NCBI GenBank assembly: GCA_012519615.1
Contig: JAAYPW010000081.1
Location: 1 to 45,872 of the forward strand
Direction: 5' to 3'
Source: Fusobacteriota bacterium
GTDB taxonomy: Bacteria; Fusobacteriota; Fusobacteriia; Fusobacteriales; JAAYPW01
Length of the DNA stretch: 45,872 bases
Below the pieces are notes generated by a model. That model had not been told where the DNA came from. It worked only from the letters and a program-made list of their open reading frames with translations, and did no database searches. This document shows, piece by piece, positions 12,136 to 37,714 of the stretch; position 1 is the first letter of the stretch, and every line of letters begins with the position of its first letter. The position numbers were made by a program, and so were the translations under genes.

Positions 12136-12188
12136 GGGAGGGAGTTATTATAAGAATATAATTATTCTTAGGTAACGTTTAATAGATG
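12136..12188 (+). promoter_or_regulatory. Hairpin-bridged ribosome-binding site of accC
   Basis: The only strong Shine-Dalgarno, GGGAGGGAG (12136-12144), is about 42 nt before the accC ATG (12186). Between them an 8-bp perfect stem TAAGAATA (12151-12158) / TATTCTTA (12163-12170) with a 4-nt loop can be extended by GTTA (12144-12147) / TAAC (12173-12176). Folding leaves 9 nt between hairpin and ATG. An in-frame TAG directly precedes the ATG, so no upstream start is possible. Confidence 0.6.
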
Positions 12189-13529
12189 TTTGAAAAAATA
12201 TTAATAGCAAATAGAGGTGAAATTGCTGTTAGGATTATAAGAGCGGCTAGAGAATTAGGAGTTAAAACAGTAGCAGTATATTCAGAAGTAGATAAAGATT
12301 CACTACATGTAAGATTAGCAGATGAATCTGTATGTATAGGTTCGTCAATGAGTTCAGAAAGCTATTTAAAAATACCGAATATAATTGCAGCAGCTGAAAT
12401 GACAAATGCTGATGCTATACATCCAGGATATGGATTTTTAGCAGAAAATGCTGAGTTTGCAAAAATATGTGAAACATATAATATTGTATTCATCGGACCA
12501 TCTGCTGAGTGTATCACAAAAATGGGTGATAAAGCAACTGCAAGAGAAACAGCAATGGCAAATAACGTACCTGTAACTCCTGGCTCGAAAGCTATAATTC
12601 ATACAATTGAGGAAGCAAAAAAAATTGTAAACGAAGAGATTAAATTCCCTGTTATGATAAAAGCAACTGCAGGTGGCGGTGGAAAAGGGATGAGAATTGC
12701 TAAAAATGAGAAAGAGTTAGAAACAAATTTCGTAGCAGCAAGAAATGAGGCTAAAGCTGCATTTGGAAATCCAGATGTATATATAGAAAAATATATTGAA
12801 CAACCGAAACACATTGAGATACAGATTATAGGAGATAAACATGGAAATGTTGTACATTTAGGTGAAAGAGATTGTTCTATCCAAAGAAGACACCAAAAAC
12901 TTGTAGAGGAATCACCTTCATTAATATTAACAGATGATATTAGAACAAAAATGGGTGAAGCTGCTGTAAGACTTGCAAAAGCAATTAATTATGATAGTGC
13001 TGGTACATTGGAATTCTTAGTTGATAAAAATAAAAATTTCTATTTTATGGAGATGAATACAAGAATACAAGTAGAACATACTGTTACAGAGATGATAACG
13101 GGTGTAGACTTAATAAAAGAGCAAATTATAGCTGCAAGTGGAGAAAAACTTACAGTAACACAAGATGATGTGAATTTAAATGGATTTGTAATTGAATGTA
13201 GAATAAATGCAGAGGATCCAGATAATAATTTCATGCCTAGTGCTGGTAAAATAGAAAATTATATTGCACCTGGTGGAATAGGTGTAAGAATAGATAGTCA
13301 CTCTTATTCAGGATATGAGATTCCACCTTATTATGACTCTATGATCGCTAAATTAATAGTACATGGTAAAACTAGAGAAGAAGTTGTATCGAGAATGAAA
13401 AGAGCATTAAGAGAGTATATAATTGAAGGTGTTAAAACAACAATACCTTTCCATCTTAGAGTTTTAGATAATGAAAAATATGTTAAAGGTGAATATTCAA
13501 CAGACTTTATAGAAAAAGAATTTAGTTAA
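12186..13529 (+). CDS. accC: Biotin carboxylase (acetyl-CoA carboxylase subunit)
   Basis: 447 residues, full length. ATP-dependent carboxylation of biotin on the carrier protein. N-terminal domain [32 protein letters not shown]-grasp glycine loop [37 protein letters not shown] and the active-site [10 protein letters not shown] are all intact, then the C-terminal biotin-carboxylase domain to the end. A canonical N-terminus and an in-frame stop just upstream fix the start at 12186. It follows the lysine-less BCCP by 75 nt; accA and accD are not in the window. Could alternatively serve another biotin-dependent enzyme, for instance a decarboxylase or pyruvate carboxylase. Confidence 0.96.
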
Positions 13530-14834: not shown

Positions 14835-15245
14835 GTGAGTATGAGACAAGCAAGGGAACATCTTTTCAAAATATTATTTGAATCAGATTCAAATAGTGTT
14901 TTACCTATAAATATAATTTATGATTATATAAACAGGGATGAGAATATTATAAAAAAAGAATATATGGATTTTATAGTAAAATACAGCGAAGAGATATCAG
15001 CGAATATAGATGAAATTGATAAGACTATTGATATAAATATGAGAGGCTGGGATATAAATAGAATTGGAGTTGTAGATAGAGTTTTACTTAGAATATCAAC
15101 TTATGAGATTTTATATGATATTATACCACAAAATATATCGATTAATGAAGTTGTTGAACTAGCTAAAATATACGGTGAAGAAAAAAGTTATGAGTTTATA
15201 AATGGTGTATTGGCAAATATAATCAAATTTAAAAAGAGTAACTAA
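14835..15245 (+). CDS. nusB: Transcription antitermination factor NusB
   Basis: 136 residues. The family start RQAREHLFKILFESD, the central WDINRIGVVDRVLLRISTYE and the C-terminal SINEVVELAKIYGEEKSYEFINGVL match NusB. With NusE it binds boxA RNA to allow antitermination on rRNA operons. I choose the GTG at 14835 because GGAGAGGA lies 8 nt upstream and it begins 1 nt after the previous stop; a longer reading from 14817 would swallow the ribosome-binding site. It closes the asp23 group. Confidence 0.93.
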   Translation: MSMRQAREHLFKILFESDSNSVLPINIIYDYINRDENIIKKEYMDFIVKYSEEISANIDEIDKTIDINMRGWDINRIGVVDRVLLRISTYEILYDIIPQNISINEVVELAKIYGEEKSYEFINGVLANIIKFKKSN

Positions 15246-20078: not shown

Positions 20079-20126
20079 GAGGAGGGAGTTATTAATATAA
20101 GAATTTATTAATAGCTAAAAAAAATG
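20079..20126 (+). promoter_or_regulatory. Hairpin-bridged ribosome-binding site of the cyclase gene
   Basis: AGGAGGGAG (20080-20088) is 35 nt before the ATG (20124). A 10-bp stem, AGTTATTAAT (20087-20096) with ATTAATAGCT (20107-20116) and one G-U pair, folds out the intervening bases, leaving exactly 7 nt. A TAG in frame at 20112 excludes upstream starts. The site begins like that of accC (shared GGAGGGAGTTATTA). Confidence 0.6.
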
Positions 20127-21951
20127 AGAGATGATGATAGTATATTAAATAATTTTAATAAGAATATTAATATTATTGGTGCTTTAATATTACTATTTTT
20201 ATTCATATATATGATTAATGGATTTTTTTATCATGTAAGAGAATATAAAAAAAATAAAGTTGAAAATTATTATAATTTAAAAAATATTAAAATGGAAAAA
20301 TCAATGTTTTATAATAATTTAAAATTTTATATTGCATTATCAGAGAAAACAATTAAAGATGAAAAACTAAAAAAATTAATTAGTAATCTTAATAATGAAA
20401 ATATAAAAGATATTGAAAATATTTTATATGGTGTACAAAAAATCTTATCATGTGAGAATATTTATATAATGGATAAAAATGGTGAAGTAATAATAAGTGT
20501 AGATAAGAATTTTTATAATAATAATTACTCGTTTCGTCCGTATTTTCAAAATGGATTAAAAGGAGAGGTAACTGTATACCCTGCTCTAGGAATTACAACA
20601 AATGAACGAGGTATATATAGGTATGCCTTTTTATATCGATAATGAGATTTCGTATGTTTTTTCTCTAAAATTAAATACAAAACTTATGGAAGAAGTACTA
20701 TACAGTTTAAATGAAAAAATATTCGTCGTATCTGAAGAAAACATAATATTTTTTTCTAATGAGAATAGTGCAATTTATAAATATATAGATGAAAAAACAG
20801 AAAATGAGATAAATAATTTATATGAAACTAAACAATTTTCTAATCAAAAATTAACTAAATATGAATATAATTTTAGTGAAGATAATATAAATATTAACGG
20901 AAAAAAATATAAGCAGATAAAAAAAGATATAGAATACGGTTGGAAAACATATATTTATTATGATATAGAAGAATTAAGTTCTTTGAAAAACACTGAATAT
21001 CTATCAATTTTATCAAAAAATATGGTAAATATATTTTTATTTTTTATATTTTTAACAATGTTTATTTTCTATAAAATTTTATTGAAAAAAGATGGCGAAA
21101 AAAATGAACTATTACAAATTATAGATAAATCACCAATAAGTATGATAATTGTAAATGATATTGGGATAATTACATATGCAAATGAGAAAATATATGATTT
21201 AACAGGATATGAAAAATATGAGATAATTGGTAAAAATGTCAATATCTTTAATAGTGAATATCAAACAGATAAAATTGATAATAAATTATGGAATAAAATA
21301 AAAAATGGAGAAATTTGGTCAGGTAAATTGTTTAATAAGCGTAAAAATGGGACAATATATTTGGAAAAAATGACAATAGTTCCTATAAATACAGGTAACG
21401 GATTTGATAAGTTTCTTGCTATAAAGGAAGACTCAACTGAAAATCAAAGCTATATAACTACAATATCTAATTGTGCAAAAACAGATAAATTTACTGGAAT
21501 ATATCATCGTAGTTCAGGTTTTATTTTTTTAGAAAAATTAATAAATCAAAGCAAAATTAGTCAAAATAAATTTACATTATGTTTTATCGGAATTGATGAT
21601 ATTAAATATGCTAATAAAGCATATGGATATAAATTTGGAGATAATATAATTAAAGAATTTGTTAAGGTGGTAAAAGAGAACTTAAATGATGATAATATAT
21701 TTTTTAGAGCTAGTGGAGATGAATTTATAATACTATTTCCTAGAAGAGAAAAAAGCGATGTAATAGGAAACTTAAATTCTATATTGACTAAATATTCTGA
21801 AATAATTACGGACAAAGGTCATCCATATATATATTCAGCAACTTATGGATGTTCCGAATATGATTCTGCGAGAGATATAAATTCAGATATTTTAGTGCAG
21901 GAAGCTAGTAAAGAGATGTATGATAAAAAAGAATATAATAAAAATAATTAA
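20124..21951 (+). pseudogene. Membrane sensor diguanylate cyclase (Cache-like, PAS, GGDEF) split by a frameshift
   Basis: Two overlapping readings (20124-20642 and 20602-21951) together make one protein of about 609 residues. The first has a membrane helix (about 17-37) and the start of an extracytoplasmic Cache-like sensor; the second resumes the sensor at the equivalent point (IGMPFYIDNE), then has a second membrane helix, a PAS domain (ITYANEKIYDLTGYEKYEII) and a GGDEF domain with the signature ASGDEF. The break falls in a (TA)4 run at 20612-20619; one more TA would restore the frame. The GGDEF variant SGDEF may still make cyclic di-GMP. It may be a true pseudogene, a phase-variable gene or a sequencing error. 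Confidence 0.75.
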
Positions 21952-34250: not shown

Positions 34251-34304
34251 TAAAAGAATATATTTTTAAATAATATGAATAAAAATATCGAAAGGAGCAA
34301 TTTT

Positions 34305-35141
34305 ATGTTTGATGTAAAGAGCTTGGAAAAAAAGGCAATTGAAATTAGAAAAATGATTGTTGATATGATATGTGCTGCAAATTCAGGACATCCTGGCGGA
34401 TCATTATCTGCAGTAGATATACTTGTATCGCTTTATTATGGAGGCGTTTTAAATGTTGATCCCAAAAACTCTAAAGATGAAAATAGAGATAGATTCGTAT
34501 TAAGTAAAGGGCATTCTGCTCCAGCTTTATATGCAGTTTTAGGAGATAAAGGTTTTTTTGATAAAAATATATTAAATACACTTAGAAAATACGGCTCACC
34601 TTTACAAGGTCACCCTGATATGAATAAAGTGGCAGGAATAGATGCTTCAACAGGTTCTTTAGGTCAAGGATTGTCAATTGCATGTGGAATGGCTATATCA
34701 GCTAAAATATATAAAAATGATTATCGAGTACATACTATTCTGGGCGATGGTGAGTTGCAAGAGGGTCAAATATGGGAAGCTATGATGACAGCAGCACACT
34801 ATAAATTAGATAATTTAGTAGCTGTAGTTGATAATAATAATCTACAAATAGATGGAAATGTAGATAAAGTTATGGGAATTGAGCCACTAGATGAAAAGTT
34901 TAAATCTTTTGGATGGGAAGTAATTAAAATAGATGGTCATAATATTAAAGAGATTCTAGAAGCTTTTGAAACAGCTAAAACAATAAAAAATAAACCTACA
35001 GTTATAATAGCAAATACAATAAAAGGTAAAGGAGTATCTTTTATGGAGAATGTTTGTGGTTTTCATGGTGTTGCTCCAACTTGTGAAGAAAAAGAGAAAG
35101 CATTTTCAGAATTAAATGTTTGTTTAGGAAAATATTGTTAA
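34305..35141 (+). CDS. tktN: Transketolase, N-terminal subunit
   Basis: 278 residues. The thiamine-diphosphate-binding half: SGHPGGSLSAVDIL, the LSKGHSAPALYA segment, GDGELQEGQIWEAMM with the metal-binding Asp, and NNNLQIDG. It transfers two-carbon units between sugar phosphates in the pentose phosphate pathway. The ATG at 34305 follows AAAGGAG; an earlier ATG at 34275 would include that site. The partner subunit follows 54 nt downstream. Confidence 0.95.
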   Translation: MFDVKSLEKKAIEIRKMIVDMICAANSGHPGGSLSAVDILVSLYYGGVLNVDPKNSKDENRDRFVLSKGHSAPALYAVLGDKGFFDKNILNTLRKYGSPLQGHPDMNKVAGIDASTGSLGQGLSIACGMAISAKIYKNDYRVHTILGDGELQEGQIWEAMMTAAHYKLDNLVAVVDNNNLQIDGNVDKVMGIEPLDEKFKSFGWEVIKIDGHNIKEILEAFETAKTIKNKPTVIIANTIKGKGVSFMENVCGFHGVAPTCEEKEKAFSELNVCLGKYC

Positions 35142-35150
35142 TAAAAAATA

Positions 35151-35198
35151 AGGAGGTGAAAAATCGTTGTTTGTTTAACAACGATTATAATATATATG
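35151..35198 (+). promoter_or_regulatory. Hairpin-bridged ribosome-binding site of tktC
   Basis: AGGAGGTG (35151-35158) is 37 nt before the ATG (35196). Between them AATCGTTGTT (35162-35171) pairs perfectly with AACAACGATT (35177-35186) across a 5-nt loop, leaving 9 nt before the ATG. The frame has no other ATG, GTG or TTG back to a TGA at 35157. Confidence 0.7.
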
Positions 35199-36122
35199 GA
35201 AGAAAAAGCAACAAGAATAGCTTATGGAGAAACATTGGCTTCATTAGGTGAGACAAATCCTAATATAGTTGTATTAGATGCTGATTTATCGGGATCGACA
35301 AAAACATCAGTTTTTGCAAAAAAATTCCCAGAAAGATTTATAAATGTAGGTATTGCTGAACAAGATTTAATGGGTACAGCAGCTGGAATTGCTTCTACAG
35401 GTAAAATTGTGTTTGTATCAACATTTGCAATGTTTGCAGCAGGTAGAGCATATGAACAAATAAGAAATACAATAGCGTATTCTAAATTTAATGTAAAAAT
35501 TTGCCCTAGTCATGCTGGAATTTCAGTAGGTGAAGATGGAGCGTCGCATCAAGCTATTGAGGATATTGCTTTAATGAGAGTTATACCAGAAATGAAAGTA
35601 TTATGTCCTGCTGATGCTATAGAAACAAAAAAAATGTTAGAAAAAGCGATAGAATATAATGGACCTGTATATATTAGACTTGCAAGACTTGCAACACCAA
35701 TTATATTTGATGAAAATTATAATTTTGAAATAGGCAAAATCAGTACACTTAGAGAAGGAAATGATGTAACAATTGCAGCAATGGGAATGCTTGTAGGGGA
35801 AGCAATAGAAGCGTCTAAAATTTTAGAAAAAGAAGGTATAAAAGCAAGAGTTTTAAATGTGTCTACAATAAAACCTCTGGATAAAGAAACAATACTAAAA
35901 GCAGCAAAAGAAACTAAATTTATAGTAACTGCAGAAGAACACTCAGTTATTGGTGGATTAGGAAGTGCAATTTCTGAGTTTTTATCTGAAGAATATCCTA
36001 CAAACGTTTATAAAATTGGTATTTATGATAGATTTGGTGAAAGTGGAACTGGTAAAGAATTATTAGAAAAATTTGGACTTAAAGCAAAGGATATAGTTGC
36101 AAAAGTTAAAGAAAAACTCTAA
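35196..36122 (+). CDS. tktC: Transketolase, C-terminal subunit
   Basis: 308 residues. Pyrimidine-binding half: VLDADLSGST, NVGIAEQDLMGTAAG with the conserved Glu that activates thiamine diphosphate, SHAGISVGEDGASHQA, and the C-terminal transketolase domain ending ELLEKFGLKA. Forms an alpha2beta2 enzyme with tktN, as in archaea and many anaerobes. The unusual ribosome-binding arrangement may set the subunit ratio. A terminator follows immediately after the stop. Confidence 0.95.
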   Translation: MEEKATRIAYGETLASLGETNPNIVVLDADLSGSTKTSVFAKKFPERFINVGIAEQDLMGTAAGIASTGKIVFVSTFAMFAAGRAYEQIRNTIAYSKFNVKICPSHAGISVGEDGASHQAIEDIALMRVIPEMKVLCPADAIETKKMLEKAIEYNGPVYIRLARLATPIIFDENYNFEIGKISTLREGNDVTIAAMGMLVGEAIEASKILEKEGIKARVLNVSTIKPLDKETILKAAKETKFIVTAEEHSVIGGLGSAISEFLSEEYPTNVYKIGIYDRFGESGTGKELLEKFGLKAKDIVAKVKEKL

Positions 36123-36855: not shown

Positions 36856-37714
36856 AATATTAGAAGAGGTGCGAGAAAATATAAAAAATGATAAGAATCT
36901 TTTTTATTATTCTCTTGTTACAATGATTATTATTTTTTTTATATTTAATTTTTTTTGTATGATGGCTTTAAATTTACTTAAATTTAATGAATATTTAAAA
37001 TCAAATATGCAATTAAAAATCTATATAGAAAAAAACACAACAAAAGAAGAAAATTTATATTTAGAGAAAAAACTATTAAAATATGATGAAATTATAAAAA
37101 CAAAATATGTTTCAAAAGACATTGCATTAGAAGATTTATCAAAAAATTTAGATTTAAATTTTGATTATACAGATAATCCATTACCAGATGCTATTTTTGT
37201 AAGGATAAAAGAAAATACTGATATAGATAAACTAATTAAAATTATAAAAACTGAAAAAAAAGTAGAAAGTGTTGAAGTAAAAAATGAATTCTTAAATAAA
37301 ATTAAAAGATTAAATAAGGCATTAAATAAAGTAACTATATATATTTCGTTTATCGTATTAGGTTCAATATTTATTTTAATATTCAATCTTATTCAATCAA
37401 CAATATTAATTCGTAAAAAAGATATAAAAATTATGGCATTAGTAGGAGCAACTAGACTTTATATTGAAATGCCATTTATAATAGAATCTATTATAGTTGT
37501 TATTTTAGCTTCATTAATCTCTACAGCTGTATTTATCCCAATATATAACATTTTAAGAGAAAGTGCAAAAGTTGTTGCACCATTTGTATCAATGGCTTCA
37601 TGGCAAGAAGTTATAATTCCTACTATAATACTTGTATCTGTTACGGGTATACTGATTAGTGTATTATCAACAGTTATAACTATGAAAATAAATTTAAAAT
37701 TATATGGTGAATAG
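36845..37714 (+). CDS. ftsX: Cell-division membrane protein FtsX
   Basis: 289 residues. One N-terminal membrane helix (about 20-45), a periplasmic loop (about 45-160), and three C-terminal helices, the FtsX topology; KKDIKIMALVGATRLYIEMPF matches the conserved cytoplasmic turn. Transmits conformational changes from FtsE to the periplasmic amidase activator. Start ATG at 36845 lies inside ftsE (11-nt overlap) with GAGGGAG upstream. Confidence 0.93.
   Translation: MMIKILEEVRENIKNDKNLFYYSLVTMIIIFFIFNFFCMMALNLLKFNEYLKSNMQLKIYIEKNTTKEENLYLEKKLLKYDEIIKTKYVSKDIALEDLSKNLDLNFDYTDNPLPDAIFVRIKENTDIDKLIKIIKTEKKVESVEVKNEFLNKIKRLNKALNKVTIYISFIVLGSIFILIFNLIQSTILIRKKDIKIMALVGATRLYIEMPFIIESIIVVILASLISTAVFIPIYNILRESAKVVAPFVSMASWQEVIIPTIILVSVTGILISVLSTVITMKINLKLYGE

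Follow-up and report, generated by a model that had tools for sequence, protein, structure and literature searches.

The tktC locus raises the question of how a ribosome could select a start codon whose Shine-Dalgarno (SD) sequence lies far beyond the usual distance, a situation found at three genes of the window (the whole stretch of 45,872 nt analyzed here, with a GC content of 25%), where SD and start codon are 37-44 nt apart. The window is one contig of a draft genome of 1.80 Mb in 158 contigs, belonging to an order that also contains Fusobacterium, Ilyobacter and their kin; the closest named matches are approximately 70% identical across tktC. The extended SD of this gene, AAGGAGGTGA (35150..35159, plus strand), is followed on the same strand by a hairpin (35162..35186) with arms at 35162-35171 and 35177-35186 and a loop at 35172-35176, that is, 10 perfect base pairs and a 5-nt loop, after which 9 nt remain before the ATG at 35196. 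The hairpin has a predicted stability of -10.8 kcal/mol (z of -3.3), and only one of 200 shuffles was equally stable. The gene itself (35196..36122, plus strand; NCBIfam transketolase) encodes the C-terminal subunit of transketolase and has homologues in 60 of 60 relatives; its ATG start is right, as homologues start no more than two codons away. The tktN ORF holds GAAAGGAG (window 34275-34305) followed by an ATG about 30 nt in, and from the sequence this internal ATG is probably the true tktN start.

At accC (biotin carboxylase, 12186..13529, plus strand, with residue 1 at position 1 of the TIGR00514 profile), the SD GGGAGG (12136..12141, plus strand) precedes a 13-bp hairpin with one internal loop and the base GTTAT/GTAAC (12144..12176, plus strand; -10.5 kcal/mol, 1 of 200 shuffles as stable), and 9 nt separate the hairpin from the ATG at 12186. 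The third gene, encoding a diguanylate cyclase, carries the SD GGAGG (20081..20085, plus strand) and an 11-bp hairpin (20087..20116, plus strand; -9.4 kcal/mol, 0 of 200 shuffles as stable) that ends 7 nt before the ATG at 20124. The cyclase gene (window 20124-21951) appears split, with a 172-aa N-terminal ORF, membrane-anchored by sequence (20124..20642, plus strand; Pfam), overlapping the ORF of the PAS-GGDEF part in a different frame (20602-21951; Pfam), which suggests a frameshift or an assembly error. No Rfam family was matched at gathering score within the window, and a scan match at window position 36923 was discarded as a false positive inside a coding region. The initial annotation had proposed a hairpin-split ribosome-binding site at tktC, accC and the cyclase gene, and the arrangement is real at all three.

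Scanning all long open reading frames over 76% of the genome (1.36 of 1.80 Mb) identified GGAGG as the spacing-peaked SD core; its positions cluster as usual 4-13 nt ahead of the ATG, most often at 7-8 nt, and form a further broad shoulder approximately 26-56 nt upstream. GGAGG was located 20-58 nt upstream in 55 genes that lack an in-frame start at the usual spacing, and in 44 of them one strong hairpin fills the gap, compared with 7.95 +/- 2.46 (maximum 14) in 200 sets of dinucleotide shuffles of the same spacers. Control regions contained far fewer hairpins: 4/55 in segments immediately preceding the same long-spacer SDs and 20/215 ahead of ordinary SDs. The stems were perfect in 31 of 41 cases, with a stem GC of 22% and loops mostly of 3-8 nt. 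Starting from the stem instead of the SD, we found that 51 of the 325 genes lacking an adjacent SD have a perfect stem, 8 bp or longer, that stops 3-13 nt short of the ATG, and an SD-like motif stood directly 5' of the stem in 41 of these 51, against 7% of background windows. When only the motif GG[ATC]GGTGA was searched and pairing was ignored, a closing stem of at least 8 bp was present at 28 of 43 long-spacer sites, compared with 1.9 (maximum 6) in shuffles, which served as the control here because decoy motifs overlap the real sites (10-12 matches). Pair counts on 24 sites are circular, these sites having been selected for pairing. Altogether, the search methods yielded 68 candidate genes across the 76% of the genome covered, and by extrapolation we estimate a genome-wide total of about 70-90, since a few of the candidates could have arisen by chance and weak SDs (the AAGAGG of T4 gene 25, for example) escape detection; individual weak members of the set are uncertain. 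The expectation that the design recurs across this organism is thus strongly supported by the scan.

The geometry of these sites follows a simple rule. Spacer length increases with hairpin size (r = 0.92, slope 0.90), so that the residual spacing left after the hairpin is nearly constant, at 9.8 +/- 2.9 nt, with 42 of 44 sites within 5-16 nt; a residual of 5-14 nt was obtained for 91% of the real hairpins and for 56% of the shuffled ones. The sites combine an SD placed farther than usual from an authentic start codon with a stable stem that restores near-normal spacing. Longer spacers were also observed, including those of lpxC (155 nt, the longest), a 701-aa ORF resembling RNase R (97 nt), gyrA (86 nt), ybaB (63 nt) and others. 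The longest are closed by a 9-11-bp stem, several have a long or branched interior behind it, and in the long versions at gyrA and lpxC the closing stem is retained and lies 6 nt from the ATG.

The SDs of split sites match the anti-SD over 7.45 nt compared with 6.41 nt at ordinary SDs (p = 5e-6), the anti-SD being assumed since no 16S rRNA gene, 3' end included, was found in the draft assembly. A divergent anti-SD was considered as the cause and rejected, as the sole near-match, TGGATAACCTCCTTT, does not belong to 16S rRNA. Loss of the mRNA-unfolding ribosomal protein S1 was likewise rejected, since a full-length S1 is present. The extended SD AAGG[TC]GGTGA mostly accompanies spacer stems: among its 22 occurrences in the sample, 12 had a hairpin within 62 nt, 3 were at normal distance, 2 were coding and 5 were not placed at first, the seemingly unplaced sites proving on further reading to be longer-spacer versions. 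The stems are mostly unrelated in sequence genome-wide (the initial annotation had noted at least one unrelated stem among the three of the window), and some share a base motif, CTGCTAAC/GTTAGCAG or GAGTTAT/ATAAC, which most stems lack. Besides, AAGGYGGTGAN(0-6)CTGCTAA occurs four times in this genome and in none of the other 95 genomes of the order. These shared motifs suggest, at the level of sequence, partial common ancestry or a recognition element.

The genes concerned are mainly housekeeping genes. Profile searches named valS, gltX, pheS, pheT, gyrB, prfA, typA, murG, murI, mnmG and rsmI, as well as ylqF, recJ, hom, metX, ftsA, ftsH, smc, ribF, pseI and pseudouridine synthases, many of the proteins aligning from residue 1-5, while the N-termini of gyrA, lpxC, purM, lon, mutS, rarA and ybaB were read by eye. 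As the N-termini match curated families, the start codons are secure at many sites. Operon position does not set these genes apart, with members inside and outside operons and 40 of 45 sites lying behind a same-strand gene at varied distances, much as ordinary genes do. At one split site (L079 minus strand, SD near 15231 in strand coordinates), the gene is tilS-like and lacks an ATG, GTG or TTG where a start would be expected; an ATT about 10 nt past the stem is its possible start.

Comparison with relatives, which are members of other families of the order (our genome being the sole member of its family in the comparison set), indicated a marked enrichment in this lineage. The stem-first search returned 3 of 65 genes in a 450-kb sample of Fusobacterium vincentii, whose GC content is 28%, and 4 of 79 in other Fusobacteriales, with one SD-bearing case each, and 12 of 397 in 1.2 Mb from other phyla, none with an SD. 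A first method, requiring z below -2 and noncoding spacers, gave 46 of 1171 genes here (including the known false positive at 36923), whereas F. vincentii yielded 3 of 407, Ilyobacter 0 of 148 and a mixed set of relatives 3 of 243, some of these last being doubtful on inspection; the excess is about 5-10-fold, with Fisher p values from 5e-6 to 6e-8 depending on how the relatives' doubtful cases are treated. Convincing isolated split sites were seen at adk (L024, in one genome of family f3) and at a YfcC-like transporter gene of F. vincentii (L289). In 43 comparisons of orthologues (including tktC, gyrB, pheS, pheT, murG, mnmG and lpxD), all carried an SD-like motif at ordinary distance under a permissive test, and the split design was thus most simply gained in this lineage at those genes. 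The situation named in the initial annotation as speaking against the idea, in which relatives keep the gene start and have neither the hairpin nor the distant SD, does occur in other families; this absence shows a lineage-specific design and does not show that the design is without function here. A covariance-model search of 80 relatives gave five matches in the own genome and about 3 split-like sites among 29 loci cut from the others, counts that do not represent a fair rate because 83 candidates were scored per genome and the model was trained on this genome. The SD-stem motif was also found in 15 viral contigs, nearly all coding coincidences and none a split site.

Taken together, the parts, the spacing rule, the excess over chance, the start codons and the lineage enrichment demonstrated above make it highly probable that the candidate sites are split ribosome-binding sites, in which a fold brings the SD to normal distance, and that this design has expanded in the lineage. 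A strong, often 3'-extended SD would pair with 16S rRNA while the spacer RNA folds into a stem whose two ends meet, so that the start codon would effectively come to lie about 10 nt away. By analogy with T4 genes 25 and 38, the fold would form on the ribosome and be needed for efficient initiation; it would act as a constitutive spacer and not as a switch, and the design would have spread after separation from the other families of the order. A wider reading, which we regard as possible and put forward tentatively, is that structured spacers, ranging between short hairpins and branched domains as long as 155 nt with a partly shared closing-stem motif, constitute a routine second mode of initiation with its own SD variant, which an unusual ribosome or a trans-acting factor might read.

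Among the alternatives, chance hairpins of an AT-rich genome would account for about 8 of the 55 sites, against the 44 seen, and F. vincentii, at 28% GC, has only 3 noncoding sites in 407 genes against 46 in 1171 here; chance is refuted as the cause of the whole set and retains a negligible probability. The distant SD might instead serve a hidden start or a leader peptide, the gene start being misassigned, and some sites may indeed use non-AUG codons (two TTG starts in one scan, besides the ATT suggested for tilS). Against this, spacers open in frame number 14 of 68 compared with 17.5 expected, the other 54 being closed by in-frame stops about as frequently as in shuffles, no strong frame bias exists, and the N-termini agree with curated families. 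The spacers are not hidden coding sequence, and misassigned starts are a very improbable explanation.

A regulatory role deserves more weight, since stems that bring the SD close could act chiefly as thermosensors or as on/off switches targeted by proteins or ligands: AU-rich stems could melt, and the recurrent stem-base motifs and AAGG[TC]GGTGA could be recognition features. However, most stems are unrelated and the genes form a mixed housekeeping set, and the predicted accessibility of SD and AUG is close to that of ordinary genes, which leaves no sequestered state evident. In predicted folds of the full initiation region, at least 4/5 of the SD was free at only 19 of 44 sites, which speaks against the split-site reading, although the mean unpaired probability of the SD was 0.59 in hairpin and ordinary genes alike; the stem leaves both SD and AUG outside, which differs from an SD-sequestering RNA thermometer. 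We consider switching as the chief function rather unlikely. The purposes put forward in the initial annotation, setting subunit ratios or sensing temperature, likewise find no support in this mixed housekeeping set, whose members lie within operons as well as outside them. The hairpins might also be MITE- or REP-like palindromes that landed between SD and start and were tolerated, without function, as they fold out. The recurrent motifs suggest a shared ancestry of some sites, AAGGYGGTGAN(0-6)CTGCTAA is limited to this genome among 96 of the order, and the insert is absent from the orthologues, all of which would suit such an origin. Nonetheless, hairpins are not enriched upstream of the SDs, most stems have no common sequence and their arms are complementary despite differing sequences, and the split-site SDs are stronger than ordinary ones, which makes functionless repeats unlikely.

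Should the sites indeed be split ribosome-binding sites, an arrangement known chiefly from a handful of phage genes would be standard for about 5% of the genes of one bacterium, aminoacyl-tRNA synthetases and both gyrase subunits among them. Starts of this kind can be overlooked or wrongly placed by gene finders that look for an SD no more than about 15 nt away. Moreover, how much folded RNA the 30S subunit tolerates between an SD and its start codon becomes a testable question, as does the reason why one lineage uses split sites so often. The literature searched, most subscription journals lying outside it, contained no account of a cellular organism that uses split sites on a genome scale. 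In Staphylococcus aureus, an extended SD with longer pairing and a longer aligned spacing than in Escherichia coli has been described (PMC13009471), and extended pairing is shared with the sites reported here; a word search of that paper found no mention of a hairpin or stem-loop in the spacer. The resemblance to phage T4 claimed in the initial annotation has gained strong support from the genome scan, the mechanism being drawn by analogy. In T4 genes 25 and 38, the SD lies 22-27 nt from the AUG, the stem brings spacings of 22 and 27 nt down to 5 and 11 nt, respectively, stem-destabilizing mutations reduce initiation, and the gene 25 split site is confined to part of the T4-like phages (PMC3014915). 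Our own scan also detected in T4 denA an AAGGAG-hairpin-ATG arrangement with a 23-nt spacer leaving 7 nt; the GenBank start of this gene (L250 27518-27952) is a GTG at the hairpin edge, and a split site would mean initiation at the ATG 24 nt downstream. Overall, the architecture described in the current study matches that of T4 in every respect tested, with a distant SD and an intervening stem that restores the spacing. The present sites differ from T4 genes 25 and 38 in that their spacers can reach 155 nt and an SD variant is tied mostly to the stems, and whereas in T4 the design concerns few genes of one phage group, the 76% of this cellular genome that was covered holds about 68 candidates, essential genes included.
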